A stretch of DNA of 37,380 nt, from positions 1 to 37,380 of the IMG/VR virus record IMGVR_UViG_3300044912_000025. One strand, 5' to 3'. A program made the translations under genes and the position numbers. Under the pieces are notes generated by a model. That model did not search any database, was not told where the DNA came from, and was given only the letters and a program-made list of their open reading frames with translations. Below are positions 1,278 to 37,380 of this stretch, one piece after another. Source of the DNA: a virus. The first letter of the stretch is position 1, and each line of letters opens with the position of its first letter.

Positions 1278-1286
1278 GGAATTAAC

Positions 1287-2234: not shown

Positions 2235-2245
2235 TATTAAGGATA

Positions 2246-2265: not shown

Positions 2266-2275
2266 TTCTCTACAT

Positions 2276-3219: not shown

Positions 3220-3228
3220 GGACATATC

Positions 3229-3615: not shown

Positions 3616-3624
3616 GGATAGAAC

Positions 3625-5040: not shown

Positions 5041-5048
5041 GAAAAAAA

Positions 5049-5467: not shown

Positions 5468-5470
5468 TTT

Positions 5471-6247: not shown

Positions 6248-6250
6248 AAA

Positions 6251-7615: not shown

Positions 7616-7624
7616 GGAGTTTTA

Positions 7625-9780: not shown

Positions 9781-10187
9781 TGTTAAATTTAAGAATAGTT
9801 CCATCTACTCACATACAACAGACTTGGGGTGAAGTAGAAAATATGCTGGCAAGTGCGATTGTGCATTCTGCTGGCGAGTACAACCTAGATCAGTTAAAAG
9901 TAATGCTAGTTGAAGGCAGACAGGTATTATTAGTTTTAATTGATGAAGATAATAAGATCCAAACAGCATTTACAGTTGAGTGGATTGACTACCCGAACGA
10001 CAGAGTGGCCTTCTTAACGGCCATTGGTGGTAAGACAGACTTAAACGCATTTAATCAGTTTAAGGACTGGGTTAAGGCAAGTGGTGGCACAAAAATTCAG
10101 GGTGCTGCTTTTGAATCAGTTGCTAGGCTTTGGAAAAGAAAGCTTGGTTTTGAGAATAGATACATAATTGTGGAGTACGCACTATGA
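9780..10187 (+). CDS. GNAT-fold-like phage protein
   Basis: 135 residues. The layout helix, then a strand VEGRQVLLVLIDEDNK (residues 43-58), a strand AFTVEWIDYP, the AFLTAIGGKTD segment (80-90), a helix and the C-terminal KLGFENRYIIVEY strand resembles an N-acetyltransferase fold. In several podoviruses a gene of this kind sits among the internal virion or tail genes. The acetyl-CoA loop is not obviously conserved, so catalysis is uncertain. TAATG and ATGA overlaps couple it to both neighbours. Confidence 0.55.
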   Translation: MLNLRIVPSTHIQQTWGEVENMLASAIVHSAGEYNLDQLKVMLVEGRQVLLVLIDEDNKIQTAFTVEWIDYPNDRVAFLTAIGGKTDLNAFNQFKDWVKASGGTKIQGAAFESVARLWKRKLGFENRYIIVEYAL

Positions 10188-11308
10188 GATACAACCATTT
10201 AGATATGCTACCAGAAAAAGCATTTCAGCCAGTAGGCAAACATATGACACTTGAAGGCGGTGGTGGTGGATCAAGTGGTAGTTCAACAACGCAGCAAGGA
10301 ATTGATCCATTGCTCAAGCCATATGTAAGATATGGCCTTACAGAAGCTCAAAAGCTTTACCAAACAGATTCACCAGAATACTATGGTGGCCAAACATATG
10401 TAGGCCCATCTGAGCAAACACAGCAAGCACTAAGGGCAGCACAAAATCGTGCGATGGCTGGCAATCCAATGCTACCTGCGGCTCAACGTCAGCAACAAGA
10501 TGTTATTGAGGGGGCTTACTTACAAAACAATCCATACTTTAATCAAGCATTAGCTGGCGCATCTCAAGGTGCTACACAGGTTTATAACGATGCAATTGCT
10601 AAGGCTCAAGGCGCTTCATCAATGGCTGGCCGTTACGGTTCAAACGTATCTGCAGACTTGCAAAATCGTGCAGCAACATCACTTGCTAACACATTGGCCA
10701 ACAAATATGGAGAACTTGCGTATACCAATTACGCTGGTGAACGTGCTATGCAGAATCAGGCAGCTCAAAACGCACCAACATTGGCACAAGCTGATTACTA
10801 CGACATTAATCAATTATTGCAAACTGGTCAGGCTCAAGAAGAGTATGGAAGAACTGCATTGCAAGCTGACATTGATCGCTTTAACTTTGAGCAAAACAAA
10901 CCATACGCTAAGCTACAAACATTCTTGTCAAGCGTTTATGGCGCTCCACAAGGCTCTGTTACAACAACTGAGCAATCTGGTGGTGGCAAGATTGTATGTA
11001 CTGCAATGAACCATGTATATGGCTTCGGTAGCTTCCGTCAAAAAATCTGGCTTGCACAATCTAAAGACTTGCATCCAGCATATGAGAAAGGTTATCATAC
11101 AGTCTTCATGCCAATCATTTTCTTTGCTTACGCTAAGAATCAAAACTTTATCCGTACAGCAGTTCGTAACGTACTTGAACACATTGCTCGTCACCGTACT
11201 GCAGACATCTGGAAACAAAAACACGGTAAACGTGACACACTAGGCCGCATCTATCGTGCAATCATCGAACCTTCTTGCTACTTAGTTGGCAAGTTGAAAG
11301 GGGCTTAA
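10184..11308 (+). CDS. putative internal virion protein with a widespread C-terminal phage domain
   Basis: 374 residues in two parts. Residues 1-265 are Gln/Ala/Gly rich and helical (GGGGGSSGSS linker near residue 24, then repeated NQAxxxA patterns), like proteins ejected with DNA or lining a tail channel. From about residue 268 the protein switches to the block KIVCTAMNHVYGFGSFRQKI, with RHRTADIWK and DTLGRIYRAIIEPSCY further on. I recall this C-terminal domain fused to otherwise unrelated phage proteins. Codon choice also becomes more regular there. Its function is unknown to me. The next gene starts one base after the stop. Confidence 0.7.
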   Translation: MRYNHLDMLPEKAFQPVGKHMTLEGGGGGSSGSSTTQQGIDPLLKPYVRYGLTEAQKLYQTDSPEYYGGQTYVGPSEQTQQALRAAQNRAMAGNPMLPAAQRQQQDVIEGAYLQNNPYFNQALAGASQGATQVYNDAIAKAQGASSMAGRYGSNVSADLQNRAATSLANTLANKYGELAYTNYAGERAMQNQAAQNAPTLAQADYYDINQLLQTGQAQEEYGRTALQADIDRFNFEQNKPYAKLQTFLSSVYGAPQGSVTTTEQSGGGKIVCTAMNHVYGFGSFRQKIWLAQSKDLHPAYEKGYHTVFMPIIFFAYAKNQNFIRTAVRNVLEHIARHRTADIWKQKHGKRDTLGRIYRAIIEPSCYLVGKLKGA

Positions 11309-11309
11309 T

Positions 11310-12116
11310 ATGGCTTTTCAATTCGCACCGATGTTGATAGGGGCTGGTATTGGGGCGCTTGGCGGCCTTCTTACTGGCCGTGATCCATTGAAAGCTGCTG
11401 CAGTTGGTGGCGCTACTGGTGGTTTGTTTGGAAACCTTCCAGCAGGTGCATGGGGTGGAGGTGCTGCTGAAGTAGCTAAATCTGGCGCTCCAAATATTGC
11501 AGCAGGTGCAACTCCAGTTACTTTAGGTAGTAGCTCAACTCTTCCTACTGGAGCAGATATTGGAGCTAGTTTTTATAATGTTTCAAATCCTGTAACAAGT
11601 TATTTGCCTACAGACATGGCCGCTAATTATGCTACAAATTATGCAGCAACGACAGGCGCAGTTCCAACTGTAGCTCAATCATTTAACCCATATACTGGTT
11701 TGTATGATGATGCATTAACTGGGGTAGAATCATTTAACCCATATACTGGCGTTTATGATGATGTTTTAACTGGAGCAGAATCATATGTTGACAAAGGTCT
11801 TATTGGTAGCACTAACTTCAATCCAGTAGCTAACATTGGCGCAACTTCACAGCAAACACCATTCTTTGCTGGAAATGAAGTTATTAAAGATGTGGGTATT
11901 CCAGAAGAGTCTTTATTTGATCAACTTAAACCATATGCTAACGTACAAAACTTGGCTGGTGCTTCAATGATTGCAAATCAGTTTAATCAGCGCCCACAAA
12001 TGCCTACAGCACCATCTGGTGGAGTATCTCGTGGACAAGCTCCACAAGGCACAGACGTTATGGCATTGTTAGCAAGTGTCAAGCCTCGTGAACAAAGACG
12101 TATCTCTCTATTGTAA
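11310..12116 (+). CDS. Gly/Ala-rich putative ejection protein
   Basis: 268 residues. The first 45 residues (APMLIGAGIGALGGLLTG and following AAAVGGATGGLFG) are a glycine-zipper-like hydrophobic stretch that could insert into the host membrane. The rest is low-complexity S/T/N/Y, with a perfect-frame tandem repeat of 17 residues (SFNPYTGxYDDxLTGxE). Proteins with this glycine-zipper opening are common just before long ejection proteins in podoviruses. Role in DNA delivery is inference. Confidence 0.6.
   Translation: MAFQFAPMLIGAGIGALGGLLTGRDPLKAAAVGGATGGLFGNLPAGAWGGGAAEVAKSGAPNIAAGATPVTLGSSSTLPTGADIGASFYNVSNPVTSYLPTDMAANYATNYAATTGAVPTVAQSFNPYTGLYDDALTGVESFNPYTGVYDDVLTGAESYVDKGLIGSTNFNPVANIGATSQQTPFFAGNEVIKDVGIPEESLFDQLKPYANVQNLAGASMIANQFNQRPQMPTAPSGGVSRGQAPQGTDVMALLASVKPREQRRISLL
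11680..11781 (+). repeat. 51-bp tandem duplication within the Gly-rich gene
   Basis: Units 11680-11730 and 11731-11781 both start CATTTAACCCATATACTGG and differ at a minority of bases, many of them silent. The match is much closer than for other repeats in this region, so the duplication looks recent. Confidence 0.85.
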
Positions 12117-12125
12117 GGAAACAAA

Positions 12126-13469
12126 ATGGCAAACGGATTATTAGATTTATTTGGTAGCGCTTTAGGCACTACACCGCCTTCTTACTTAGAAGGTTTACTT
12201 GGATCACAACAAACTGAAGACTTACGCAAGCGTTCAATTGGTACTGGCTTAGTTAATGCATTGATTGGTTATGCTGCGATGCCTAAGAATCAAAACTTAG
12301 GTTTAGGCCGTATCTTGGCTGGTTCTGCACAAGCTGGCATTCAAGGCGCTCAAGGTGTTTATGACACAGCTACTAAAGATTACATGACATCACAGCAAAT
12401 TGCTGAAATGAAGCGTAAACAAGATTTAGCAAGATACCAACAAACTGCTATTGAAAAAGCGGCAACACAATATCCTGAGTATGCAGATGCAATTAGAGCT
12501 AATCCAGATCTTCTAAAAGACATTATTACCTCAAAAATTAATGTAGAAGTTGATTACAAAGATGCTGGTGATAAATTAATTCCTGTTAATAAAAAGACTG
12601 GCGCTCCAATGGCAAACTTGCAGCCTATTGTTAAAACGCAAGGTGTTGATTACAAAGATGTTGGAGATAAGTTAGTTCCATTAGATAAATTTACTGGTAA
12701 ACCAATTGCTGAATTAGCTCCAATTTCTAAAGTGCTTACTACTAGCAATACAATCGATTACGACAGATATGCTGCAGATACAAAAGCTGCTGGAAAAGTT
12801 CCAATGGATTTTGACACATGGAACTTGCGAACTAAAAAAGCAGGTGCTGGCGGAATTACGCTACCACCAGAAGCTCTTGGACTTGGCAAAACAGCTCAAG
12901 GAGATGTTGATAAGGCTTTATTAAGTTCTGGTGATCGATTATCTCAACTAAATCAAATTCAAATGAATTTTAGACCAGAGTATCAAACTATTCCATATAA
13001 AACCCAATCAGCTTGGGTTGGATTAAAAGACAAATTTAATGCAGCAAAACCAGAAGAAAAAGCTAATCTTCAAAATTACGCTGCATTTAGACAAGATTCT
13101 GTACGTCAACTTAATACATATATTAATGAAATTACTGGTGCAGCAATTGGTCAAGGTGAAGAGGCTGATCGTATCAAGGCTGGTGTTCCAAACGTAGGCT
13201 CTGGAATGTTTGATGGCGATAGTCCTGCAGAGTTTGAAGCAAAATTAAACAACACCATGAAAACATTAAGGCTTGCTGAAGCTCGTTTAGCCTATGTAAA
13301 ACGTAATGGCCTTGCAATTACAAATATTAAAATTGATGAGATGCCTAGTTTAATTGCTAAACGTGAAAGAGAAATTATTGCAGCTAACAAGTTAGATATT
13401 AATAAGAATTTAACTCATAGACAGCAACTAAAACAACAGCTTGCTACTGAATTTGGATTGGTATATTAA
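12126..13469 (+). CDS. putative internal virion (ejection) protein
   Basis: 447 residues, helical and Q/A/K rich. The N-terminus (MANGLLDLFGSALGTTPPSY, then LVNALIGYAAM and ILAGSAQAGIQGAQGVYD) resembles the opening of phage ejection proteins. Residues 142-173 and 174-205 form a 32-residue tandem repeat (VDYKDAGDKLIPVNKKTG, then VDYKDVGDKLVPLDKFTG). The C-terminal half is coiled coil. No peptidase or transglycosylase motif is seen. Position between the Gly-rich protein and a 691-residue protein matches the ejection trio seen in P22-like phages. AAGGA precedes the start. Confidence 0.65.
   Translation: MANGLLDLFGSALGTTPPSYLEGLLGSQQTEDLRKRSIGTGLVNALIGYAAMPKNQNLGLGRILAGSAQAGIQGAQGVYDTATKDYMTSQQIAEMKRKQDLARYQQTAIEKAATQYPEYADAIRANPDLLKDIITSKINVEVDYKDAGDKLIPVNKKTGAPMANLQPIVKTQGVDYKDVGDKLVPLDKFTGKPIAELAPISKVLTTSNTIDYDRYAADTKAAGKVPMDFDTWNLRTKKAGAGGITLPPEALGLGKTAQGDVDKALLSSGDRLSQLNQIQMNFRPEYQTIPYKTQSAWVGLKDKFNAAKPEEKANLQNYAAFRQDSVRQLNTYINEITGAAIGQGEEADRIKAGVPNVGSGMFDGDSPAEFEAKLNNTMKTLRLAEARLAYVKRNGLAITNIKIDEMPSLIAKREREIIAANKLDINKNLTHRQQLKQQLATEFGLVY
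12549..12740 (+). repeat. 96-bp tandem coding repeat (32-residue units)
   Basis: Units 12549-12644 and 12645-12740 encode the two consecutive 32-residue blocks beginning VDYKDxGDKL. The first 21 bases of the units are nearly identical while the ends have drifted. Confidence 0.8.
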
Positions 13470-13470
13470 T

Positions 13471-15546
13471 ATGGCTGAAAAAAAATTACCTAGCGTTACA
13501 GATGAGCTTTTAGGTGGCGGAGTAAGAACTTTATCTGCTCCTAAACAATCGACAACATCTGTGACAGATGAGTTGATAGGCGGAAGACAGATGAGAGTTC
13601 CAGTTTCTCAACCGCCATTATCAGTTAATCCTGCTATGGGAGCTGATTTTATTACAGCACTAAAGGCTGGCATTCCTTTAAATCAACAAGATGCAATTAA
13701 ATCTTTTGCTGCATCTCGTAGGATTCCAGAGTCACGCTATACAGTCATTGATGGTAAAATTGCATATCGTGCAGACGATGGTAAATATTACCCAGAAGTT
13801 CCAAACTTTATGCAAAGGCCATCTACTAATCTTGGCTATGTTACGCCAGATATTTTAGAGGCTGTTCCAGATATTGGAGTTGGTATTGCAACAGCTCCGC
13901 TTAGTCCTGCGGTATCAATCCCAGCAACTGCAGCAACTGCTGCTGGATCTAACTTGGCTCGTCAAGGTATATCTAAGTTAATGACTGGTAGTAATATTGA
14001 AGCATTCCCTGCAGTATTATCAGGATTTTTTGGTGGACTAGGTGAGCTTGCTCCAGTTGGTGCTAAAGCAGTAAGAGAAAGAGCTACGGCAAGAGATATT
14101 GCAAATATATCGCAAGGCACTAATGCTAGAGATATTGAAACTTTAATGCGTAATGCCAAACAGTTTAATATTAATTTAACTCCAGCAGAAATTACTAATT
14201 TACCTTCATTAAAACAACAGCAAAAAGTTTTAGGCAATGTTGAAACAAGTTCTGATCAATTAAATAAATTCTATACAAAGCGATACCAAGAGCAAGTTCA
14301 ACCTGCAATTGATGAATTTTTGTCTGGAATATCTCCAACTGGTGAAGCTATTGAAGCTGGATTAAAAGGTCAAAAAGCATTACAAGAAGCTGAACAAAAC
14401 TTAATAAAACAAAGAAAAGAAGCTACAGAGCCTATATTTAAAGCTGCTTTTGATAGATCAGTTCCTGTTGACTCAAGCCCAGTAATATCACAAGTTGATA
14501 AGATGCTTGAGATTGCAAAAGGCAAGGAGCGTGATGCGCTACTTAGCGTAAGAAAAAACTTATTTAGAGAAAAAGAAGCGCTAGATTCTCAAGGTAATAA
14601 AACAACTATTACTGCTGTAGAAGATAGACTGCCAGCATTGCAAAGAGCTAAGTTTGATTTAGATGCTTTTATGCGTTCTGATGCTGGATCAAGCATGGAT
14701 GCAACTATTCAGCAAGAGATGAATGGGTTAAAGAACACATTGCTTGAGCAGATGGGCAAAGACAATCCAGACTATTTAGCTGCAAACGCAAAATTTGAAG
14801 AGCTTTCTGCACCATTAAATGAATTTAGAGAAAGAAAAACTGGCCTATCATTAACAAAGATGTCACCAGACAATTTAAATCAATTTGCATCTAGACTATT
14901 TGAAAATGCAGATCCAGCAACAATTCGTTATGCAAGAAAACAAATTGAGTCTGTAAATCCAGATGCTTGGAAAGCAGTTACACGATCACACTTGCAAAAC
15001 AATTGGGAAAAAGCAAGTAAGGTTAGTGCAGGCGCTAAGGATGTAAAAATTGATGCTGGTGCTAACTGGAATAATTTGTTATTTGGTGATGCAAAAACTA
15101 GAAAATCATTGCAAGCTGCATTAGATTCAAAAGAATACCAAGCACTTACTGATTTGGCTGCTGTTTTACAAGCTGCTGGAAGAGTTCAAAAGCTAGGATC
15201 TGATACTGCATTTAATCAGTTAGTAATGGAAGAGCTAATTAAAAACCCTCCTGTTACTGGAATTGCATCTGGCGGAGCTAGAGCAATTGGTTACTTAGGT
15301 CAACCTTTGCAGTACACAAAAGCAATTGGTGACTGGGGAAGAAGAAAAGATGCTGCAGTAAATGCAAAAGAATATGCAGACATTATTACATCTCCAGATG
15401 CAATGAAAAAATTACGTCAGTTACGTCAGCTGTCACCGACATCTGCAAAGTTTGTTGCTGGCCTTTCTCAACTAGGTACTCAATATGGAATCATTGGTCA
15501 AGAGCCAATGAGTGAATCAGATTTGCAAATAATGCAGGAGCAGTAA
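13471..15546 (+). CDS. large putative ejection protein
   Basis: 691 residues from the ATG at 13471, one base after the preceding stop; an upstream TTG at 13441 is possible but less likely. Two short repeats SVTDELLGGG and SVTDELIGGR (about residues 8-17 and 30-39) open it. A hydrophobic A/P/G-rich stretch at about 125-160 could insert in membrane, and the remainder is long helices with charged repeats. The helical block around EDRLPALQRAKFDLDAFM (about 382-399) recurs in long ejection-type proteins of other phages. No enzymatic motif is recognised. It probably forms, with its neighbours, the conduit for DNA entry. Confidence 0.65.
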   Translation: MAEKKLPSVTDELLGGGVRTLSAPKQSTTSVTDELIGGRQMRVPVSQPPLSVNPAMGADFITALKAGIPLNQQDAIKSFAASRRIPESRYTVIDGKIAYRADDGKYYPEVPNFMQRPSTNLGYVTPDILEAVPDIGVGIATAPLSPAVSIPATAATAAGSNLARQGISKLMTGSNIEAFPAVLSGFFGGLGELAPVGAKAVRERATARDIANISQGTNARDIETLMRNAKQFNINLTPAEITNLPSLKQQQKVLGNVETSSDQLNKFYTKRYQEQVQPAIDEFLSGISPTGEAIEAGLKGQKALQEAEQNLIKQRKEATEPIFKAAFDRSVPVDSSPVISQVDKMLEIAKGKERDALLSVRKNLFREKEALDSQGNKTTITAVEDRLPALQRAKFDLDAFMRSDAGSSMDATIQQEMNGLKNTLLEQMGKDNPDYLAANAKFEELSAPLNEFRERKTGLSLTKMSPDNLNQFASRLFENADPATIRYARKQIESVNPDAWKAVTRSHLQNNWEKASKVSAGAKDVKIDAGANWNNLLFGDAKTRKSLQAALDSKEYQALTDLAAVLQAAGRVQKLGSDTAFNQLVMEELIKNPPVTGIASGGARAIGYLGQPLQYTKAIGDWGRRKDAAVNAKEYADIITSPDAMKKLRQLRQLSPTSAKFVAGLSQLGTQYGIIGQEPMSESDLQIMQEQ

Positions 15547-15547
15547 T

Positions 15548-15727
15548 ATGACACCTGAAGAACAGAAAGAACTGCACAAGGAAGCTATCAAGGAAGCTAT
15601 TTCTGAGTGGCTAGACAAGCAATTTACAACGGTTGGTAAGGTTACCATCAAGGGACTAGCTTCGATGGGTTTGGCAGCTTTAGTTTATTTATATGCAGCA
15701 GCACACGGTTGGAATATTAAATTGTGA
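15548..15727 (+). CDS. single-span membrane protein, candidate holin or accessory lysis protein
   Basis: 59 residues: a charged amphipathic N-terminal helix (MTPEEQKELHKEAIKEAISE) followed by one hydrophobic segment (about residues 35-53, GLASMGLAALVYLYAAAHG) and a short tail. It starts one base after the stop of the large ejection protein and opens the lysis block. The size and topology fit a small phage holin or antiholin. A separate three-helix holin lies at 17908, so one of the two may be a regulator. AGGAG lies just upstream. Confidence 0.7.
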   Translation: MTPEEQKELHKEAIKEAISEWLDKQFTTVGKVTIKGLASMGLAALVYLYAAAHGWNIKL

Positions 15728-15903
15728 AACAGTCTTTTATTAATCGTATTTGTTTATGCGATAAATGTAATACGGCCTTCATCATCAATGTTGAGGGAGA
15801 TGAAAATACCTGTGACCTATGCCTTGCCGACAATGAGTTGACACTTGAGCTTATTGACGAAGGCGTTCTAATAGAGATGCCTAATGACCGTTCACAAACT
15901 TAG
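15724..15903 (+). CDS. small zinc-ribbon protein with GTG start
   Basis: 59 residues. Cys10, Cys12, Cys15 and a second knuckle Cys30-x2-Cys33 make a likely zinc site. The GTG start overlaps the stop of the preceding gene (GTGA), so translation is probably coupled; no strong ribosome site is seen. The C-terminal half is acidic (ELTLELIDEGVLIEMP). It overlaps the next gene by 20 bases. Function unknown; small phage zinc ribbons often bind host proteins or nucleic acid. Confidence 0.55.
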   Translation: MKQSFINRICLCDKCNTAFIINVEGDENTCDLCLADNELTLELIDEGVLIEMPNDRSQT

Positions 15904-16075
15904 AGGTACAGCTCAAGAATACTTTGAGAGCATGGTAGGCAGGACTATCGAAGAGGTAGCTATCTTTGATGATGAGCTTGTCATATTTTTAGATGACGGA
16001 AAAGAAGTATGCCTCTGGGATAACGGAATGGGTTTAGCAATGCAAATTAATGAAAGGCCAGAGTTTAATGATTAA
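15884..16075 (+). CDS. small acidic phage protein
   Basis: 63 residues, ending with an acidic beta-like stretch IEEVAIFDDELVIFLDDGKE. It overlaps the zinc-ribbon gene at its start and shares ATGATTAA with the next gene's start at 16068. Unknown function. Its place in a chain of overlapping genes supports that it is translated. Confidence 0.6.
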   Translation: MTVHKLRGTAQEYFESMVGRTIEEVAIFDDELVIFLDDGKEVCLWDNGMGLAMQINERPEFND

Positions 16076-16553
16076 AAAGCACTTAATATGGTGGCTTCTG
16101 CTGCTAAATGTCATTGTTTATTCTTTTGTATGTCACGATGTTTTTGCAGAAGATACAACCATCAACTACAAAGGCCAGCCAGTTCCGAGCGCTATGTCAC
16201 CATCTATGTCTGCATTCTCACAAGATGTCTGCGGTATTGGTGTGTCAGCAGCCGCTAACGGTGGCGTGTTTTCTTTTGCTGGCGGCACAATGATTACGGA
16301 CACAAATTGTGTCAAATTAAAGTGGTCAAAATTCTTACACGATAGCGGTCTAAAGGTTGCAGCAGTTTCAGTTGCCTGTTCTGCAGATCATTCTGTATGG
16401 GAAGCTATGGAGATGTCGGGTAGTCCTTGCCCCATAGGAGGGGCAGTAGGCGATGCAGCAAGGAGAGCATGGTTTGAATTACATCCAGAGTGGTATGAAA
16501 AGCTTTACGGCAAAACTTTTACTTTGCCTTTGTCTAATCCTAGCAAGGAGTAA
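16068..16553 (+). CDS. exported phage protein of the lysis/envelope block
   Basis: 161 residues from the ATG at 16068 (an in-frame ATG at 16050 is less likely). A clear signal peptide has a basic start (MIKKH), a hydrophobic core (LIWWLLLLNVIVYSFV) and a probable cleavage after VFA near residue 27. The mature part contains SAMSPSMSAFSQDVCGIGVS and VAAVSVACSAD, with several cysteines suited to periplasmic disulphides. I recall such proteins before endolysin genes in aquatic phages, without a proven role. It overlaps the next exported gene by 59 bases. Confidence 0.7.
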   Translation: MIKKHLIWWLLLLNVIVYSFVCHDVFAEDTTINYKGQPVPSAMSPSMSAFSQDVCGIGVSAAANGGVFSFAGGTMITDTNCVKLKWSKFLHDSGLKVAAVSVACSADHSVWEAMEMSGSPCPIGGAVGDAARRAWFELHPEWYEKLYGKTFTLPLSNPSKE

Positions 16554-17544
16554 TGCGTATGCGTATTGTTATGCAACTGAGTGGCAAAATGGCATCCCTG
16601 TGTACTCAAGTCTTGGCGTGGCTCAAGGTACAACTATGGAATCTTGTCAGCAACTTGCGTGTAGTATTTTTCCAAGTATCCCTGAATGTGGCCAGCCACC
16701 TGAACCGCCTTGTCAAGATATTGTCGAATTTCAAAGCCTTGCTTGCGAACCTAATTATAGTGGTGCAATCAATCAAACTCGTACTAAAACGTGCAGTAAC
16801 AATCAATGGACAGATTGGACAACAACTTCTAACAACTGTTCGCCAAATCCCCCAACTTGTCAAACAAGCGTTGAAGAAAGACAAGTAGCCTGTAGTGAAG
16901 GCTACACAGGTTCAATTACAGAGCAAAGGCAATCACAATGTCCAGATCCATACGGTCAACCTATTTTTGGAGCGTGGGCAGAGATAAGCAGAAGTTGTCA
17001 GATGACAACCAGCAATCCAATGAACGTGAGCAGTCCTGTCAGTCCGATAAGTCCTGTCAATCCAATGGTTGCTCCTGCACCACCAGTAGCGGAAGCTCCA
17101 CCGCCTGCACCTGTAGAGATGCAAGCGCCTGCGGAAGCTCCACCACCTACAGCAGCACCGAAGCAAGAAGTATCATCATCGGTAACAACGTCATCATCAC
17201 CGACTGCTACTAAAACAGAAACGAAGACGGAAACAAAAGTAGAAACAAAATCAGAATCAAAACAAGAAGCACCACAAAAAATAGACGTACCAAAGGGTAA
17301 AGAATTAGTTGGTGGTTTTGGTCTGGTGATGTCACTAGAGATACTAAACAACCCTATTACATTTCAACAACAACAGCTAGAGATAGCATTAGAATATACA
17401 CAGGAGCTACCGTATGAGCTTAGAGGTCAACAAGGATTCCTTCATGGGTTACTCATGGAAGGCAGTAGTGATAATTTTTACAATATTGTCAACGGTAGGT
17501 GGAACACTCTACGCAGCAGCATTGAAGTACAACCAGATTTCTGA
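16495..17544 (+). CDS. exported Cys- and Pro-rich phage protein
   Basis: 349 residues from the ATG at 16495, chosen because it gives a standard signal peptide (MKSFTAKLLLCLCLILARSN, cleavage near AYA). The mature N-terminus holds two Cys-framed modules like CSNNQWTDWTTTSNNC and CPDPYGQPIFGAWAE, which resemble thrombospondin-type-1 stretches. Then comes a P/A/T-rich linker and a K/T/E-repeat tract, and a conserved-looking C-terminal 75 residues (GGFGLVMSLEILNNP onward). It overlaps genes at both ends, by 59 and 131 bases, in other frames. Likely a periplasmic or surface protein acting at lysis or entry; unproven. Confidence 0.7.
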   Translation: MKSFTAKLLLCLCLILARSNAYAYCYATEWQNGIPVYSSLGVAQGTTMESCQQLACSIFPSIPECGQPPEPPCQDIVEFQSLACEPNYSGAINQTRTKTCSNNQWTDWTTTSNNCSPNPPTCQTSVEERQVACSEGYTGSITEQRQSQCPDPYGQPIFGAWAEISRSCQMTTSNPMNVSSPVSPISPVNPMVAPAPPVAEAPPPAPVEMQAPAEAPPPTAAPKQEVSSSVTTSSSPTATKTETKTETKVETKSESKQEAPQKIDVPKGKELVGGFGLVMSLEILNNPITFQQQQLEIALEYTQELPYELRGQQGFLHGLLMEGSSDNFYNIVNGRWNTLRSSIEVQPDF

Positions 17545-17872
17545 GTTGGCTGATAACTATGCACCGTATGATGATGTCGAACTTAAAAACGAAATAAGTC
17601 GTTTAAAGATTCAAATATCTGGCATGGAGTCATCTTTAAATAATGTTAAGGATGGCATGGTTGCTACATCAAATCAATTGGTGTCTGTATCAGAAAAGGC
17701 ATCTACTGCTAAAGGTGAGGCAATGGAAGCTAAAGCTATTGCTAACGGCAACGCAAGAGAAACACAAGCAGCACTAGGAGGTGTTCGTGAAGAGGTCAAG
17801 GCTACTCGTGATGGAATCGAAGCAAAAATGAAGGCGCTACAAAGGGCAACGACAAATCCTTTGGGTAATTAA
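17414..17872 (+). CDS. membrane-anchored coiled-coil protein, i-spanin-like
   Basis: 152 residues. One membrane segment (about 14-37, SWKAVVIIFTILSTVGGTLYA) follows a short N-terminus, then a long helix with heptad-like spacing (about 55-140). This is the topology of an Rz-type inner-membrane spanin, which disrupts the outer membrane after lysozyme action. AGGAG eight bases before the ATG supports this start, although the gene overlaps the preceding exported gene by 131 bases. No separate Rz1-like lipoprotein is recognised. A plain coiled-coil membrane protein is the alternative. Confidence 0.6.
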   Translation: MSLEVNKDSFMGYSWKAVVIIFTILSTVGGTLYAAALKYNQISELADNYAPYDDVELKNEISRLKIQISGMESSLNNVKDGMVATSNQLVSVSEKASTAKGEAMEAKAIANGNARETQAALGGVREEVKATRDGIEAKMKALQRATTNPLGN

Positions 17873-17907
17873 ATTAAAAAAAGTGATATATTACTAAAAG
17901 GAAAATT

Positions 17908-18405
17908 ATGTTATCAATACTATCAGGTCTATTAGGTATCGGATCATCTGCACTACCATCAATCTTAGGGTTCTTTCAACAGAAGGGTGACCAAAAGCAT
18001 GAAATGGCTATGGCTAAGTTGCAGACAGAACGTGAAATGCAGATGGCTGCAGCAGGATTTGCATCGCAAGAGAAAATTGAAGAGATCAAAACAGATCAAA
18101 TAGAGATGCAAACATATGTCCAAGAACGTGAGGCATTGTACGCACACGACATGAAAATGATGGACAAGGCATCTCAGTCTACCGTAGACTTAAACGCTCG
18201 TGTGCGACCTTATATTGCGTTTACATTCGTAGGTTTATTGGTAGCTGTTGATCTTGTTGGTTTAGGTTGGGCTATTTATACTGGCGTAGATTTTACTGTT
18301 GCTATGAATAACTGTTTTAGCGATGATGAGATGGCAATTGTAAGCTCAATCATTGGCTTCTACTTTGGTTCTCGTCAATGGGAAAAACATCGTGAAGGTA
18401 AGTAA
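17908..18405 (+). CDS. three-helix holin (GTA_holin_3TM-like)
   Basis: 165 residues. A hydrophobic N-terminal stretch (residues 2-23) is followed by a charged helical middle, then two membrane helices around IAFTFVGLLVAVDLVGLGWA and MAIVSSIIGFYFGSRQWEK. The closing pattern IIGFYFGSR followed by charged residues is characteristic of the holin family first described in gene transfer agents. It would make inner-membrane lesions that release the lysozyme encoded next. AAAAGGA precedes the ATG. Its end overlaps the lysozyme start. Confidence 0.8.
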   Translation: MLSILSGLLGIGSSALPSILGFFQQKGDQKHEMAMAKLQTEREMQMAAAGFASQEKIEEIKTDQIEMQTYVQEREALYAHDMKMMDKASQSTVDLNARVRPYIAFTFVGLLVAVDLVGLGWAIYTGVDFTVAMNNCFSDDEMAIVSSIIGFYFGSRQWEKHREGK

Positions 18406-18883
18406 AAAACTTTTAGAGATGCTCAAGCATCACGAGGGTGTAAGATACAAACCATACCAATGTCCTGCTAAACTATGGACTATTGGTGTTGGACATTTAA
18501 TGTACCCAGAGCAGGGTAAAATACCTTCAACACCTGAAGGTATGGCAAGGCGTAAAGCGTGGCCATTAAAGCCAGAAGATAACCGAACATGGAGCAAAGA
18601 AGAAGTTGACACAATATTGGCTAAAGATGTCGAAAGATTTGAGCGTGGGGTTACCAGACTTATACCTATCAAACTTACACAAGGTATGCTTGATGGGTTG
18701 GTCAGTTTTAGCTATAACATTGGTCTGGGCGGTCTTCAAAGATCAACAGTCCGTCAGGCGCTTCTGCGTGGCGATAAAGTTGGTGCTATACAGAGCCTTC
18801 TCAAATATAATAAGGCTGGTGGTAAAGTCTTGAAAGGATTAGACAATCGCAGGAAGGACGAAGCCGCTCTTTTTAATTCGTAA
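18392..18883 (+). CDS. endolysin, T4-type lysozyme (GH24)
   Basis: 163 residues from a GTG start at 18392. The catalytic triad pattern E-x8-C-x5-T is present: Glu15, Cys24, Thr30, followed by IGVGH. In T4 lysozyme the middle residue is Asp; Cys occurs in some phage members. The second half has the expected GLVSFSYNIGLGGLQRSTVR motif and a closing RRKDEAALF. Later starts would cut into the N-terminal helix, and an earlier TTG at 18353 would add a non-family extension. No signal or SAR segment is present, so export depends on the holin. It hydrolyses the glycan strands of peptidoglycan. Confidence 0.9.
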   Translation: MKVSKKLLEMLKHHEGVRYKPYQCPAKLWTIGVGHLMYPEQGKIPSTPEGMARRKAWPLKPEDNRTWSKEEVDTILAKDVERFERGVTRLIPIKLTQGMLDGLVSFSYNIGLGGLQRSTVRQALLRGDKVGAIQSLLKYNKAGGKVLKGLDNRRKDEAALFNS

Positions 18884-18893
18884 CGAGAGAAAA

Positions 18894-19637
18894 ATGAAAA
18901 TCTTATTGTTGGACATAGAAACCGCACCTAACCTAGTTCATGTGTGGGGATTATGGAATCAGAACGTAAGTATTAATCAGATTATGGATAGTGGCTATGT
19001 GCTATGCTGGGCTGCTAAGTGGTACGAAGAAGATAAAATCTACTTTGATAGCGTATACAAGAGCAAGCCTAAACGGATGCTTGAGCGCATATACGAGATG
19101 CTAGAGGAAGCGGATGCTGTTATTCACTATAACGGCACTAAGTTTGACATCCCTACTCTAAACAAAGAGTTTTTGCTGCATGACATGACACCGCCAGCAC
19201 CATACAAACAGATTGATTTATTAAGAACAGCAAGAAGCCAGTTTAGATTTCCATCTAATAAACTAGACTACATTGCACAATCTTTAGGGCTAGGTAAGAA
19301 AGTCAAACACATTGGCCATGAGTTATGGATCAAGTGCATGAATGACGATGACGAAGCTTGGAAGATGATGGAAGAGTACAACAAGCAAGATGTTGTGCTG
19401 CTTGAGAAGGTGTACGACAAACTGAAGGCTTGGGTTAAAGGCCATCCTAATCATGGCGTATATGAGGGCGGTGTATGCTGCACAAACTGCGGAAGTACAA
19501 AATACCAACGTAGGGGCTGGGCATATACACAAGCTAACAAGTATCAACGCTTTTCTTGCAACGATTGTGGCACTTGGTTTAGGGGTGCTAGAAATAACTT
19601 ATTTGACGAACCGAAAAGGTTTACAGCAATAGCTTAA
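18894..19637 (+). CDS. DnaQ-like 3'-5' exonuclease with C-terminal zinc ribbon
   Basis: 247 residues. DEDD exonuclease motifs are visible: Asp7-Ile-Glu9-Thr, NGTKFDIPTL with Asp85, Asp125 region, and Tyr162-x3-Asp166 (DEDDy type). After residue 194 a zinc ribbon follows with Cys196/Cys199 and Cys222/Cys225. The fold is RNase H-like. Many podoviruses carry such an exonuclease, probably acting in DNA processing or host DNA breakdown. It is unusual to find it directly behind the lysis cassette rather than with the recombination genes on the other strand. Confidence 0.85.
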   Translation: MKILLLDIETAPNLVHVWGLWNQNVSINQIMDSGYVLCWAAKWYEEDKIYFDSVYKSKPKRMLERIYEMLEEADAVIHYNGTKFDIPTLNKEFLLHDMTPPAPYKQIDLLRTARSQFRFPSNKLDYIAQSLGLGKKVKHIGHELWIKCMNDDDEAWKMMEEYNKQDVVLLEKVYDKLKAWVKGHPNHGVYEGGVCCTNCGSTKYQRRGWAYTQANKYQRFSCNDCGTWFRGARNNLFDEPKRFTAIA

Positions 19638-19653
19638 TTATTAGAGGTAATTT

Positions 19654-21162
19654 ATGCCAAGTATATTAGACATTTTAAGGATGCAACCAACAAATCCATA
19701 TGGTGCTACATCGCCAGTACCAACTGTGCCTAATAAACTTGGTGAAGCTATACAAAATAGATGGACTGAAATTAATACGCCTCAACCTGTTAAACCTATG
19801 ACACAGCAAGAGGCTATTGATGCTGCTCTTGGTATTGCTCCTATTGGAATGACAAAAATTTTAAAAGGAATGTCTGAATTTGTACCTTCAGTTAAATCAG
19901 GTGAAGAACTAATTGTACATCATAATATTCCAGAAACAGGATTGGCTAATGTTAATGAGTTTGGTGGGCAACTAGCAGTTCCTAGTATTGCTATATCAAA
20001 AACATCAAATCCATTATCTAATTTTGGTGAGATTGATTTAATTGGATCTAAAGAGATGGCAATTCCATCTGCTAAAAATCCTGTATGGTCTTTTGATGCT
20101 TATACTAAAAGATTTCCAAAGATTGAAACTAAATCTACAAGAGAAGGTGAAAATTTAATTAATCAACAATTTTTAGCTCCATATGGAAAATTTGCTAATG
20201 AAATAAATCCAAAATTAGATGTTGCAGAATTATCTAAAAATTTAAGAGGTAATTTAGATATGTCAACTGCAAAGATTAAATATTTGTCTGATATAGGACA
20301 ATTGCCAAATCCAGAACAGTTTGATAGTTACTATAATTTTTTATATGCATCTAGAGATAAATTTCACAATTTAGAGCAATTAAATCCACAATTTCAAAAT
20401 AATTTTAATGCATGGCGTACAAATAAATTAAATGAGTTAAGTTCTACAGGTCAATTTAAAGATGTTATTTATGCTGGAACTGACAATCAAGGTAGACAAA
20501 AATATATTCCTGCAACAATGGAAAATTTTGTTAAGCAACTTAAAGGTGGCGCTGGAGAAGAAGGTTTTAATTATGGATTAGGTCAAACTCGTGCAAAAGT
20601 TGCTCCTAAATTAAAATCATTTAGTGACGTAAAAAATGCAAGAGATTTAATCGTTGATTCAGAGAAATTTAATAAAGTTAAAGATTCTATGAATGCAGAA
20701 CATGATTATTTATCAGATAAATTAACTGAAATAATTGATAAAAAAAGTGGATCATATTATTCAAGGCAAACTGCTGATGCATTATTAGAAGATATGTATA
20801 CTAAAAAATATAATCCTAATAATGAATTTAATAAAGAATACGATGCATTAATACCTAAAAATATCAAAAATAAAGCAGCAAAAGTTGGAGATATGTTAAG
20901 AAAAATGCCAACTGAGTATTTTGAAGTTAAACCTCAACGTGCAGTTCCTTTAAGTGAATTTAAAGGTGCAATTATTCCTAAAGAAACTTCACAATCTACA
21001 AGAGATATTTTATCAAAATATGGAATATCAGATGTTTATGAATACTCTAGTCCAGAACAAAGAAAAGAATTATTTAAGAAATTTGGAAATCAAATGTTTT
21101 CTGCTGGAGCAGGATTGCCATTAGCTTCAATTCCATACATTGATTATAATAAAAACAAATAG
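19654..21162 (+). CDS. phage polyvalent-protein-like protein, stand-alone
   Basis: 502 residues. Residues about 87-140 read ELIVHHNIPETGLANV, then GGQLAVPSIAISKTSNPL and FGEIDLIGS. I recognise this as the domain that opens parts of very large phage polyvalent proteins, usually as HNLxxxxL and GGLAxPSIAI. Here it is not joined to helicase or methylase domains. Ser/Lys/Asn-rich helices follow. The gene is visibly richer in A and T than its neighbours, suggesting later acquisition. GAGG precedes the ATG. Polyvalent proteins are injected and counter host defence in some phages; that role here is inference. Confidence 0.6.
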   Translation: MPSILDILRMQPTNPYGATSPVPTVPNKLGEAIQNRWTEINTPQPVKPMTQQEAIDAALGIAPIGMTKILKGMSEFVPSVKSGEELIVHHNIPETGLANVNEFGGQLAVPSIAISKTSNPLSNFGEIDLIGSKEMAIPSAKNPVWSFDAYTKRFPKIETKSTREGENLINQQFLAPYGKFANEINPKLDVAELSKNLRGNLDMSTAKIKYLSDIGQLPNPEQFDSYYNFLYASRDKFHNLEQLNPQFQNNFNAWRTNKLNELSSTGQFKDVIYAGTDNQGRQKYIPATMENFVKQLKGGAGEEGFNYGLGQTRAKVAPKLKSFSDVKNARDLIVDSEKFNKVKDSMNAEHDYLSDKLTEIIDKKSGSYYSRQTADALLEDMYTKKYNPNNEFNKEYDALIPKNIKNKAAKVGDMLRKMPTEYFEVKPQRAVPLSEFKGAIIPKETSQSTRDILSKYGISDVYEYSSPEQRKELFKKFGNQMFSAGAGLPLASIPYIDYNKNK

Positions 21163-21219
21163 AATTAATTAATGATTATCTTGATGCGTACTGTTTAAAA
21201 TAGGTTCAAACTGTAAACT

Positions 21220-21245
21220 AATAGTTGAGATCTCAGCTATTTTTT
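21220..21245 (+). terminator. intrinsic terminator or attenuator directly upstream of pqqA
   Basis: AATAGTTGA (21220-21228) pairs over 9 bp (one G-U) with TCAGCTATT (21233-21241) around a GATC loop, and the T-run 21240-21245 follows. The pqqA ribosome site begins 6 bases later. It would end late transcription after the polyvalent-like gene or meter read-through into pqqA. No convincing promoter is visible between the hairpin and pqqA. Confidence 0.7.
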
Positions 21246-21262
21246 AAACTAAGGAGCTTATT

Positions 21263-21334
21263 ATGTGGACAAAACCATCAGCAACAGAAATGCGTTTCGG
21301 CTTTGAAGTAACTATGTACGTTATGAATAAGTAA
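21263..21334 (+). CDS. pqqA: PqqA, peptide precursor of pyrroloquinoline quinone (auxiliary metabolic gene)
   Basis: A 23-residue peptide starting MWTKPSATEMRFGFEVTMY. It has the full PqqA signature: MW start, Pro5, R-x-G-F-E-V-T-M-Y, and the Glu15-x3-Tyr19 pair that the radical SAM enzyme PqqE cross-links to build PQQ. Length matches the 22-24 residue bacterial family. AAGGAG stands 6 bases before the ATG, a strong ribosome site. No pqqB-F genes are present, so the peptide must feed host enzymes. It lies last on the + strand and abuts a minus-strand gene with zero gap. PQQ is the cofactor of methanol dehydrogenases. Confidence 0.93.
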   Translation: MWTKPSATEMRFGFEVTMYVMNK

Positions 21335-21568
21335 TCATTCGTAATGTGACTTGTCTGGAAATCCATCACCGTTAGCACCTATACGATCAATTCTTTCTTC
21401 AGGCCAGTCCTGATCAGGATACTCGTTAAGTGGTAATGGCGGTGGAGTCCAGCCTCCGTTAGTTTTCTTTTTCTTTTCCCCAAAGATACGATCAAACGAT
21501 TTAGCACCCTCTTCTGTAAGAGTTCGTGATACTAAAGCATCCCCAGTTACGTCATTGTACGTTGCCAT
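21335..21568 (-). CDS. small conserved phage protein
   Basis: 77 residues opening MATYNDVTGDALVSR, with FDRIFGEKKKK in the middle and a Pro/Asp-rich tail. Small phage proteins with the YNDVTGD and FDRIF pattern occur widely among podoviruses; function is unknown to me. AGGAGG five bases before the ATG is an excellent ribosome site. It is the last gene of the minus-strand operon and meets pqqA tail to tail. Confidence 0.75.
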   Translation of the reverse strand: MATYNDVTGDALVSRTLTEEGAKSFDRIFGEKKKKTNGGWTPPPLPLNEYPDQDWPEERIDRIGANGDGFPDKSHYE

Positions 21569-22242: not shown

Positions 22243-22614
22243 TCAAAAAGGAATATCACTTTCAATTTCTTCTGCAATTTGTGCTACTTTTGTAGTAAGC
22301 GCTGCATCTTTTTTACCAAGCAATGTTACGTTACTCACATTAAGCTCGATAGACGATTTATTTGTGCCATCCTTAGCGACATATTCATTTAAAGAAATCT
22401 CACCGTTTACGGCCACTTGTGTGCCTTTTAAAAGCATTGGCGCTAACTTCTCACCACGATCTCCAAATAGGTTGCAGCGTAGCCATGTAGTCTTACGTTT
22501 ATCACCGTATCCTGATGACAATGCGAATGACCATGATGTAATTACTGCACCGCTTGCCGTGTGACGTACTTCTGCATCACTACCGATATTACCTGTTGCT
22601 GATAAGTTGTTCAT
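22243..22614 (-). CDS. ssb: single-stranded DNA-binding protein (SSB)
   Basis: 123 residues. The OB-fold pattern is clear: MNNLSATGNIGSDAEVRHTA, then SWSFALSSGYG, TTWLRCNLFGDRGEKLAP and VAVNGEISLNEY. The C-terminus SDIPF is the conserved SSB tip that recruits replication and repair proteins. It coats single-stranded DNA during phage replication and recombination. It is encoded next to the DUF1071 annealing protein, with which such SSBs usually cooperate. GGAG precedes the ATG by a normal distance. Confidence 0.95.
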   Translation of the reverse strand: MNNLSATGNIGSDAEVRHTASGAVITSWSFALSSGYGDKRKTTWLRCNLFGDRGEKLAPMLLKGTQVAVNGEISLNEYVAKDGTNKSSIELNVSNVTLLGKKDAALTTKVAQIAEEIESDIPF

Positions 22615-22781: not shown

Positions 22782-23429
22782 TTATCCTTTCAATGAGTTA
22801 ATGTGTTTTGTAATAGCTGTGCGAACATAAGATGGTAATAATGACCAAGCATAAACTTTGTAATCATTATTTATTTCACCAGTATCGTCTTTTGATACTT
22901 CCTGCAATCTATCGTTTGCAGCTTCAACATTTCCCATATCAATATCTGCAATAATTTCCATTGCTTGATCATTTATATACTGTGTAATTTCTTCATTTAA
23001 ATTATTACCAGCCCCAGCAGTAGGAGTTATTCCTTTGGGAGCTTTAACTTTTTCTTCTTTAACCTTATCTTCTTGTGGAATATCTTCACCAGCATAGATG
23101 TACAGGCCAATGCCGTGTAGTGCAATTGCTTTAGCTAGACAGCGTTGCATTGCTGTGTTGACTGCCATTGCATCTGGATTAGGAATTGCTTTGTTACGGA
23201 AGTCAATAACTGGGAGCTGTGATGTCATAGACTTGCCAAACGCTGTTACCGTACAGAATACCATCACAGTTTCACCAAACTTAACTGGATCACCGTATGA
23301 CCATGTAGCTGCTGGATCATTCTGCAAGAGTTGGTCTACTGCCCATGCCCACGATAAATACGTTAAATTGTTTTTCTTTTCTGTGTGTGCATTAACATTA
23401 ATCTTGCTTAGTTCTTTAAAGTTACTCAT
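22782..23429 (-). CDS. single-strand annealing protein (DUF1071 / Ssap type)
   Basis: 215 residues. The core KKNNLTYLSWAWAVDQLLQN (residues 19-38), followed by VMVFCTVTAFGKSM and NTAMQRCLAKAIALHGIGLY (about 91-110), is diagnostic of DUF1071, a Rad52-like annealing family. It pairs complementary single strands and drives phage homologous recombination. The charged linker with EEKVKAPKG and a helical C-terminus complete it. AGGAG precedes the start. It directly follows a small acidic gene and precedes SSB within one operon. Confidence 0.88.
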   Translation of the reverse strand: MSNFKELSKINVNAHTEKKNNLTYLSWAWAVDQLLQNDPAATWSYGDPVKFGETVMVFCTVTAFGKSMTSQLPVIDFRNKAIPNPDAMAVNTAMQRCLAKAIALHGIGLYIYAGEDIPQEDKVKEEKVKAPKGITPTAGAGNNLNEEITQYINDQAMEIIADIDMGNVEAANDRLQEVSKDDTGEINNDYKVYAWSLLPSYVRTAITKHINSLKG

Positions 23430-26228: not shown

Positions 26229-27083
26229 ATGATGGTAATTTTAGGTTTAACTGGCACGACTATTTTGGTATTTGCATTCTTATTTTTTATTGATGCAATT
26301 ACTAATGTAAGAAATGCAGCGCTTACTGTTCTAGCTGTGTTTGTATTATCTTTTGTATTAAGTTCATTCACAATTATTTCTGCTGGACATCAAGGTGTGC
26401 AGGTAACAATGGGTGAAGTTAATATGAAAACACTTAACGAAGGTCTTCATTTTGTTAATCCAATTTCAGATGTGCATGACGTAAGCGTTCGTGTTGCTAA
26501 AGCTGAATTAAAAAACGCAAACGCTGGTACTAAAGACTTACAAATTGTTCACACGGATATTGTTGTCAACTATAGATTAGATGGTAACAAAATCGCTCAC
26601 GTTTACAAAGAATTTGGATTAGAGTTAGAAGACAAGATTTTATTGCCAGCAGTAAACGAGTCTTTTAAAGCTATTACTGCACATTACAATTCAGAAGAGT
26701 TGATCACAAAACGTGATGAGGTATCTCATGCAATTAATGAGGCACTTCAAGCTAAGGTTTCTAAGTATGGATTGATAGTATCTGAGATCTCACTTGTAAA
26801 CTTTGGATTTTCTGCACAATACCAAGCTGCTATTGAGCAAAAAGTAATTGCAACTCAACAGAAATTAAAGGCAGAGCAAGATCTGAGTCGTATTCAAGTT
26901 GAGGCAGAGCAGAATATTGCTAAGGCTAAAGGTGAGGCTGAATCTATCCGCATTCAAGCGCAAGCAATTCAAAATCAAGGTGGTAAGGATTATGTTCAGT
27001 TGCAAGCAATTGGTAAGTGGGATGGTAAGTTACCTACATACATGATGGGCAATGCAACACCAATGATTAACATTAAGGATTAA
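26229..27083 (+). CDS. SPFH / prohibitin (band 7) family membrane protein
   Basis: 284 residues (a start at 26232 is equally possible). Two N-terminal hydrophobic segments (about 4-25 and 30-52) precede the SPFH core: IISAGHQGVQVTMGEV, then TLNEGLHFVNPI and VHTDIVVNYRLDGNKIAHVY. A long coiled coil follows (about 198-255, EAEQNIAKAKGEAESIRIQA). This is the order seen in HflC, prohibitin and stomatin. Host members scaffold membranes and regulate the FtsH protease. A phage copy could protect phage proteins from FtsH or modify the membrane against superinfection. It has its own promoter and AGGAG site. Confidence 0.9.
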   Translation: MMVILGLTGTTILVFAFLFFIDAITNVRNAALTVLAVFVLSFVLSSFTIISAGHQGVQVTMGEVNMKTLNEGLHFVNPISDVHDVSVRVAKAELKNANAGTKDLQIVHTDIVVNYRLDGNKIAHVYKEFGLELEDKILLPAVNESFKAITAHYNSEELITKRDEVSHAINEALQAKVSKYGLIVSEISLVNFGFSAQYQAAIEQKVIATQQKLKAEQDLSRIQVEAEQNIAKAKGEAESIRIQAQAIQNQGGKDYVQLQAIGKWDGKLPTYMMGNATPMINIKD

Positions 27084-28030: not shown

Positions 28031-28325
28031 TTTAGTAGAGGTAGAGGGCAATTGGCAAGTGTTGATTAAAGAGCGCAATAGTGATCGTAGCGTAGAGCAG
28101 AATGCAAGGCTATGGGAGCTATATAGCAGCGTAGGTAATTATCTAGGCTATACGGCAGAAGAGATGCACGACCTGATGGGATATAAGTTCTTGCTGATTG
28201 AAAAGAATATTGGCAGAGAAAAGGTGACAAAAGTCCAGAGTACGACTAAACTATCGGTTAAGGATATGGGCGAGTATCAAGAGAAGATACAAGCGTGGGC
28301 AAGTAACTTAGGATGGAGCTGGTAA
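27963..28325 (+). CDS. ninB: NinB-like recombination protein
   Basis: 120 residues. WQVLIKERNSDRSVEQNARL (residues 31-50) with WELYSSVGNYLGYTAEEMHD and MGYKFL is diagnostic of the NinB/Orf family. Lambda NinB binds single-stranded DNA and SSB and stands in for host RecFOR in recombination. The first 20 residues (MQKHKPFNITKSN) extend beyond the usual start and overlap the preceding gene by 68 bases. With the DUF1071 protein, SSB and Ref it completes a recombination set. Confidence 0.85.
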   Translation: MQKHKPFNITKSNLPVLVAKLNDLVEVEGNWQVLIKERNSDRSVEQNARLWELYSSVGNYLGYTAEEMHDLMGYKFLLIEKNIGREKVTKVQSTTKLSVKDMGEYQEKIQAWASNLGWSW

Positions 28326-28643: not shown

Positions 28644-28830
28644 AGTTCCTAAAATAACGTTACCTGAAAATGAGTATAGCCGTATGGTTCACTATACAAC
28701 TAGGAGCAACCCTGAATATCATTACCGAGAACTAGAACGTATTAAAACAGGCACGTGGTTTTTTGGTTTGTTTAACACGTATAAGTACGAATGGTCAGAG
28801 TGGAAAACATTAAAGGAAAAGAACACATGA
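28639..28830 (+). CDS. small phage protein
   Basis: 63 residues: a Tyr/Arg/Trp-rich sequence with EYSRMVHYTTRSNPEYHYRE and TGTWFFGLFNTYKYEWSEWK. AAAGGA precedes the ATG by 8 bases inside the 23-bp repeat. Its last residues LKEKNT come from the second copy of the repeat. Unknown function. Flanking repeats suggest it was inserted or duplicated as a unit. Confidence 0.6.
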   Translation: MIVPKITLPENEYSRMVHYTTRSNPEYHYRELERIKTGTWFFGLFNTYKYEWSEWKTLKEKNT

Positions 28831-28831
28831 T
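28809..28831 (+). repeat. 23-bp direct repeat, second copy
   Basis: Identical to 28621-28643; here it ends the gene at 28830 and starts the SGNH hydrolase gene at 28827. Confidence 0.9.
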
Positions 28832-29246
28832 TGATTGCTTAATTATTGGTGACAGCATTGCATTAGGTGCTGCTATGTACAAGCCAGAGTGTCGAACACT
28901 TGCTAAAGGTGGCATTAACTCACAGCAATGGAATCGTAAGTGGCAGTATGAACCATTGAAGGCTGCAAGCGTATTAATCAGCTTGGGCAGCAATGATCAC
29001 AAGTGGGTGAAGACTAAGCAAGAGCTGGTAAAGATTAGGAGCGAGGTCAAGGCTGACAGAGTTTACTGGGTGCTACCTGAAGGCAACCTACCTGCTGGTG
29101 GTGTAGACATTAACGATGTGCGTAGGATGGTGCTAGAGGTTGCAGATGATTACGGTGACCATGTGATTCCTATCATGCATATATCAAGAGATGGAATACA
29201 TCCAACTGGAAAAGGATATAAAGAGATTGTGGAGGAGTTTAAATGA
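28827..29246 (+). CDS. SGNH/GDSL-type hydrolase
   Basis: 139 residues from the ATG at 28827 (ATGA overlap; AAAGGA upstream). All four SGNH blocks are visible: IIGDSIALG with Ser10, GGINSQQW with Gly29, SLGSNDH with Asn56, and DGIHPTGKGY with Asp122 and His125. The family hydrolyses esters of lipids or polysaccharides. Length is short for the family. No signal peptide is present, so it acts in the cytoplasm or is released by lysis or packaged. In the middle of the early operon it may remove acetyl groups from host polymers or act on host metabolites; substrate unknown. Confidence 0.85.
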   Translation: MIDCLIIGDSIALGAAMYKPECRTLAKGGINSQQWNRKWQYEPLKAASVLISLGSNDHKWVKTKQELVKIRSEVKADRVYWVLPEGNLPAGGVDINDVRRMVLEVADDYGDHVIPIMHISRDGIHPTGKGYKEIVEEFK

Positions 29247-37352: not shown

Positions 37353-37380
37353 CTGAACAACCAGTTTTTTAGCTAACACC
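37161..37380. repeat. terminal direct repeat, right copy
   Basis: Matches 1-220 except G at 37253 for T at 93. It covers most of the small gene at 37122-37352 and its downstream terminator. Confidence 0.95.

Follow-up and report, generated by a model that had tools for sequence, protein, structure and literature searches.

A viral gene for PqqA, the precursor peptide of the cofactor PQQ, was published in 2020 from Lake Baikal on the T4-like contig VP_266 (PMC7678222), and pqqA is among the viral genes of a 2026 reservoir study (PMC13188868). Viral PqqA is, in itself, a known kind of gene and not new. VP_266 resembles the locus described here in encoding PqqA, in its predicted Methylophilaceae host and in the role proposed for the peptide, namely the support of methanol oxidation. 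It differs in being T4-like and in co-encoding a methanol dehydrogenase, whereas the pqqA described here is an orphan in a small phage with an SU10-type portal. A companion population of VP_266, VP_139, encodes radical SAM proteins; neither a host-type operator nor breadth over phage lineages was described in that report (PMC7678222). The phage P19250A was stated to lack such genes (PMC7678222), a published absence contradicted by its sequence, in which pqqA is present at 28085-28153.

Orphan pqqA genes are also known from the hosts (PMC4109929; Ge et al. 2015, as cited in PMC9851590). Like the viral gene, the Methylophilaceae copies show the same peptide type, operator and ribosome site and are dispersed from pqqBCDE. 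Unlike it, they are chromosomal, about 125 nt separate their operator from the downstream ATG, compared with about 94 nt in viruses, and TATAAT boxes are rare in their leaders and common in viral ones. Three to twelve copies of pqqA have been described, as against typically single-copy other pqq genes (PMC4109929). In our survey, pqqA was present in 185 of 187 Methylophilaceae genomes with a median of 3 copies (counts transcribed by hand), most of them likewise dispersed from pqqBCDE, and PqqE was single in 7 of 8 host genomes, those in which it scored over the cut-off. Among the matches listed for a pattern for TEMRFGFEVTMY in 84,980 genomes, nearly all belonged to Methylophilaceae and other Betaproteobacteria. 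The hosts thus amplify the substrate and not the enzymes, and the same rule holds in the phages.

The stretch of DNA analysed here (the window) is the whole 37,380-nucleotide virus record IMGVR_UViG_3300044912_000025. Its relevant features are as follows:

1287-2234, plus strand: major capsid protein, SU10 type (PF17236, 323 bits)
19654-21162, plus strand: gene upstream of pqqA, with a PBECR5 nuclease-like domain (Barnase-EndoU-ColicinE5/D-RelE; PF18814, 65 bits)
21169-21185, plus strand: host-type pqqA operator TTAATGATTATCTTGAT, 94 nt before the ATG, where the host and viral de novo motifs coincide
21220-21241, plus strand: stem-loop in what is presumed to be the 5' leader, AATAGTTGA-GATC-TCAGCTATT followed by a T run (RNA fold)
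21251-21256, plus strand: Shine-Dalgarno element AAGGAG (from the sequence; present in front of most pqqA genes, viral and host alike)
21263-21334, plus strand: pqqA, encoding a 23-residue PQQ precursor peptide (PF08042, TIGR02107; Glu15/Tyr19; dN/dS about 0.1)
21335-21568, minus strand: convergent 77-aa open reading frame, its stop directly adjoining that of pqqA (0 nt between them; from the list of open reading frames, no PHROG match)
22243-22614, minus strand: single-strand binding protein of the recombination module beside pqqA (PF00436)
22782-23429, minus strand: Sak-type single-strand annealing protein (PF06378, phrog_659)
33261-34559, plus strand: terminase large subunit, used for phage placement (phrog_2; tblastn)
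34547-36634, plus strand: portal protein, SU10 type (PF23899, 718 bits)

The gene at 21263-21334 is confirmed as a genuine pqqA. It translates to MWTKPSATEMRFGFEVTMYVMNK, followed by the stop TAA. The PqqA profile PF08042 matches this peptide with 43.3 bits (cut-off 21.1, E 3e-11) and the NCBIfam equivalog TIGR02107 with 40 bits (cut-off 20), about twice the curated threshold in both cases; a PHROGs search left it unmatched. The crosslink region reads Glu15-Val-Thr-Met-Tyr19, i.e., the Glu-x3-Tyr arrangement whose residues are destined to become PQQ. The AAGGAG element ends 6 nt from the ATG, an in-frame stop lies 18 nt upstream, and the PqqA core has a single match in all six frames of the window. 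An earlier note, made from the sequence alone, had proposed each of these elements (a pqqA gene, the Glu15-x3-Tyr19 pair and a strong ribosome site), and had placed the gene in a phage with no other pqq gene and tentatively assigned it a Methylophilaceae origin. All of this agrees with our results: the terminase, portal and capsid genes and a scaffold protein gene lie in the same record, tblastn for pqqB-E and the PqqE profile both came back empty in the window, as did the search for a PQQ alcohol dehydrogenase, and both the peptide and the operator are of the Methylophilaceae type.

The two ends of the record (1-220 and 37161-37380) form a direct repeat over 220 nt, broken by one mismatch, and the genome is therefore probably complete. 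By tblastn, its terminase is nearest to those of the environmental phage ctXG6705 and Methylophilales phage Venkman (66%), followed by HTVC010P-type pelagiphages (44-46%). These comparisons place the window among the relatives of Venkman, a phage that infects OM43 methylotrophs. It has 22 proteins in common with ctXG6705, 16 with Venkman, 3 each with P19250A and MEP401, and none with MEP301; positions 1-20000 show no DNA-level similarity to known phages. Venkman EXVC282S (MT375522) encodes a PqqA peptide 100% identical to that of the window behind the same operator. Its pqqA is unannotated and lies between two minus-strand genes, whereas that of the window comes after a gene on the plus strand, at a convergent junction where the abutting minus-strand frame leads to the SSB/Sak recombination module. 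The window yielded no tRNA and no Rfam family. A Band-7/SPFH protein (26229-27083) and a GDSL lipase-like protein (28791-29246) are also encoded in this small phage.

The distribution of pqqA among phages was assessed by tblastn with the PqqA peptide (E up to 10) against 50,697 phage records, which returned only ten methylophage-type records and two mislabelled bacterial contigs. Since the hits were nearly all of the methylophage type, the match of the window peptide is far above chance. Nine of the ten are isolates, i.e., Venkman, P19250A, MEP301, MEP401, MEP402 and four Melnitz records; the tenth is ctXG6705. All of the methylophage isolate records found, a count which leaves out MEP431-434 (Pelagivirus type), therefore contain the gene, and the SAR11-infecting pelagiphages in the same records gave no PqqA match. 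The bacterial hits, which bear the name Acinetobacter phage MD-2021a, were rejected as viral copies, as they adjoin ppk and a pqqBCDE operon; one such record (CAKLQF020000010.1, L128) holds ppk with a pqqABCDE operon and is bacterial DNA filed as phage.

The earlier note had also expected related phages to carry unannotated copies, and this proved strikingly so, both in the ten methylophage-type records and in metagenomic contigs. In the six record regions that we opened, pqqA was either unannotated or lay under an antisense "hypothetical protein", as in ctXG6705 (L124, 2067-2195) and Melnitz (L127, 2961-3056); these antisense frames are likely misannotations. In IMG/VR, two scans with degenerate DNA patterns fixing eight codons revealed at least 240 contigs with pqqA (at least 120 in each scan). 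Among the matches listed in the first scan, 110 of 120 encode a Methylophilaceae-type peptide. The other 10 of the 120 listed contigs, L003, L009, L012, L016, L017, L092 and L109 among them, encode other PqqA types, which suggests further PQQ-making hosts, as judged from the peptides. An 87-kb IMG/VR contig (L441, about position 10243) encodes a different, alphaproteobacterial-like type, AWTTPTISEVTCGMEVTSYSSAEI, and from this contig viral pqqA may reach beyond the phages of Methylophilaceae.

The carriers of the gene are diverse. The window shares few or no genes with MEP301, P19250A and MEP401, the 141-kb Melnitz genome is classed in Kyanoviridae and MEP401 in Zobellviridae; by these comparisons, therefore, pqqA is carried by at least five phage lineages. 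Within the lineage of the window, pqqA was found in 7 of the 9 records that are 33 kb or longer. Its near-full-length relatives L307 and L338 have no detectable pqqA, and the gene is therefore not essential to every member of the lineage.

Such breadth over unrelated phages would also fit a receptor common to them. PqqU, a TonB-dependent receptor, serves as a phage receptor in E. coli, where PQQ prevents phage IsaakIselin from infecting (PMC12124388), so that extra PQQ leaked or secreted from an infected cell could close PqqU to other phages and thereby shield that cell or its neighbours. We consider superinfection exclusion of this kind a real but improbable rival: the use of PqqU by phages of Methylophilaceae is without evidence, the hosts are already PQQ producers, and the same benefit would have to be needed by all of the unrelated phages.

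The reading that we prefer, in which the phage peptide feeds the PQQ pathway of the host, agrees with the genomic context of the gene and with the manner in which its sequence has been conserved. PqqE above the cut-off and PQQ alcohol dehydrogenase were found in none of the 33 pqqA-positive phage genomes, and no pqqB-E gene lies near a Methylophilaceae-type viral pqqA among the IMG/VR matches listed. A weak PqqE match in one genome (G223; 27.7 bits, cut-off 381) was rejected as some other radical SAM protein. For the 113 distinct viral genes among the matches listed, dN/dS is 0.10. Because the search pattern itself fixes eight codons, the ratio was recomputed on the 14 codons left free, and it came to 0.11; the other reading frames give pN/pS values above 1.5. 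Arg11 and Phe14, neither of which is required by the pattern, are invariant in all 113 genes, and Arg11 is encoded by five different codons. The pattern of substitutions indicates purifying selection on the viral coding sequence. With synonymous sites close to saturation (pS 0.64-0.70), a tree of such 69-base genes could not date the captures.

These values bear on two further explanations. Supplied without the Pqq enzymes, the precursor might in theory titrate the chaperone, and phage PqqA might thus act as a decoy that occupies PqqD/PqqE, slows PQQ synthesis and stops methanol oxidation, sparing the cell formaldehyde stress. In an inhibitor, the loss of one of the crosslinked residues would be expected; here, Glu15, Val16, Thr17, Tyr19 and their flanks match the host substrates and are under purifying selection, which makes a decoy very unlikely. 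It might also be argued that a gene so tiny, present in several copies in each host, is easily captured, and that pqqA is a passenger picked up repeatedly from the multi-copy host loci to no benefit. With a dN/dS of about 0.1 despite near-saturated synonymous divergence, the gene present in every methylophage isolate record found, and its ribosome site and promoter spacing kept, there is hardly any probability left for this proposal.

The gene thus has the attributes of an auxiliary metabolic gene: it is phage-encoded, it appears to be host-derived (from its Methylophilaceae-type peptide and operator), and, judged by its dN/dS, it is maintained as a functional gene. Linkage to pqqBCDE, a common though not a required trait of PqqA, is absent from the Methylophilaceae-type viral copies. 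The proposal of the earlier note that a phage carries pqqA as an auxiliary metabolic gene accordingly stands as far as the gene and its carrier are concerned, but describes no first case, VP_266 having been published in 2020 (PMC7678222). That note missed both the breadth over unrelated phages and the host-type operator.

The operator was recognized by expectation-maximisation. In 116 de-duplicated host pqqA leaders, 88% contain the motif T[CA]ATGAwwwT[CA]ATTAG, and in 98 likewise de-duplicated viral leaders, 81% contain T[TA]ATGATTTTCnTTA; the two are the same palindromic, TMATGAWWWTCATKA-like element. The motif derived from hosts only exceeds 10 bits in 58 of the 98 viral leaders, versus about 1.6 of 98 random phage stretches. 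The operator was validated on a second, independent set, and the viral motif was found in 35 of 43 held-out viral leaders, versus 1 of 43 random phage stretches. The element of the window is the top match to the viral motif and the second-best match to the host motif in its entire length. In a whole-genome scan of six phages, the pqqA leader is the first- or second-ranked site of the host-derived motif in five (the window, Venkman, ctXG6705, P19250A and MEP301), and MEP401 carries pqqA without the operator.

The host leaders most often place a -10-like hexamer 43 nt from the operator, and the viral ones either 43-44 or 21-22 nt from it; these gaps would centre the operator near -63 or -41, typical positions for activators. 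In the window leader, the scans for consensus promoters and terminators were empty, and no -10 box is therefore claimed for it. Host genomes contain 1-6 strict matches to the operator, mostly at pqqA. In Methylophilus methylotrophus (L261, G007:C1:182165) the pqqA operator also stands in front of pqqB, pointing to a putative dedicated regulator of PQQ synthesis in Methylophilaceae. In the viral leaders the operator is almost as common as the gene itself, and one might suppose that the regulator-binding site is what is selected, as a means of titrating the regulator, with the peptide incidental to it. Strong purifying selection confined to the pqqA frame, together with the retention of pqqA without the operator in MEP401, leaves this supposition extremely improbable.

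Stems of at least 7 bp are found in 23-24% of the viral pqqA leaders, compared with 5-6% in shuffled sequences; the enrichment in host leaders is weaker (9% versus 3%). Such a stem-loop, as modelled by RNA folding, is a possible mRNA stabiliser or translational control element. The viral stem-loops lie about 40 nt before pqqA and differ in sequence. In the window, an outer helix within 21200-21262 also pairs with the ribosome site in the folded RNA.

Taken with the identity of the gene, its orphan state, the selection on the peptide, its breadth and the common operator and spacing, all of which were observed here, we assign a probability of roughly 0.75 to the following reading: the phage took over a functional pqqA gene, along with its promoter-proximal operator, from a host of the Methylophilaceae, and the product feeds the host PqqBCDE. 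During infection, the phage genome would contribute many copies of pqqA. Host PqqD would hand the phage peptide to host PqqE, which would join Glu15 to Tyr19, and PQQ would be completed by the other host Pqq enzymes. The supply of PQQ would thereby be raised, or kept up when host transcription falls, and the cofactor would serve the periplasmic methanol dehydrogenases (XoxF/MxaF) that provide energy and carbon for phage replication. The common host and viral operator suggests that phage pqqA answers to the same host regulator as the host copies, probably an activator. Expression, processing by the host enzymes, the effect on methanol oxidation, and the identity and sign of the regulator are inferred.

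Each PQQ consumes one PqqA, while the enzymes of the pathway act repeatedly (Barr et al. 2016, cited in both PMC7678222 and PMC9851590), so that the peptide gene alone would be enough to raise the supply. In a cell-free extract, supplied PqqA was converted into PQQ at 70-80%, according to work cited in PMC9851590, which makes the feeding of host enzymes plausible. In Gluconobacter, as cited in PMC7936290, single-gene overexpression raised PQQ most with pqqB and next with pqqA; the peptide therefore need not be limiting. The hosts already possess about three copies of pqqA, and the gain to a phage is therefore not obvious. We nevertheless lean slightly towards the broader proposal that phages infecting methylotrophs face a general bottleneck in the supply of PQQ precursor, such that at least five unrelated lineages carry a pqqA regulatory cassette (operator, spacing, leader and peptide) under the host PQQ regulator.

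The open-access literature that we searched contained no report of pqqA in cultured methylophages, of its breadth over lineages or of a common operator. What appears to be new here is the presence of pqqA in all nine isolate genomes found, in at least five lineages and annotated in none of those read; its purifying selection and its orphan state in 33 pqqA-positive genomes; and the same operator and -10 spacing in host and viral leaders.

As a rule, viral metabolic genes encode enzymes and are picked up by gene callers, whereas pqqA is a 69-base gene for a substrate peptide, which the standard annotation of published methylophage genomes missed or overlaid with a false antisense frame. The gene can serve as a marker of methylotroph phages in metagenomes, and the operator as a starting point in the search for a Methylophilaceae regulator of PQQ synthesis; phage pqqA also offers a testable case of host cis-regulation retained by a phage. 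Because unrelated viruses of the same hosts carry pqqA, the upholding of methanol oxidation during infection is suggested to be a common need of methylotroph viruses, and the gene directs attention to the supply of PQQ as a step that may limit the infection of abundant aquatic methanol oxidisers. If precursor supply is indeed such a bottleneck, pqqA would represent a near-universal, overlooked class of peptide-substrate auxiliary metabolic genes with a captured host operator.
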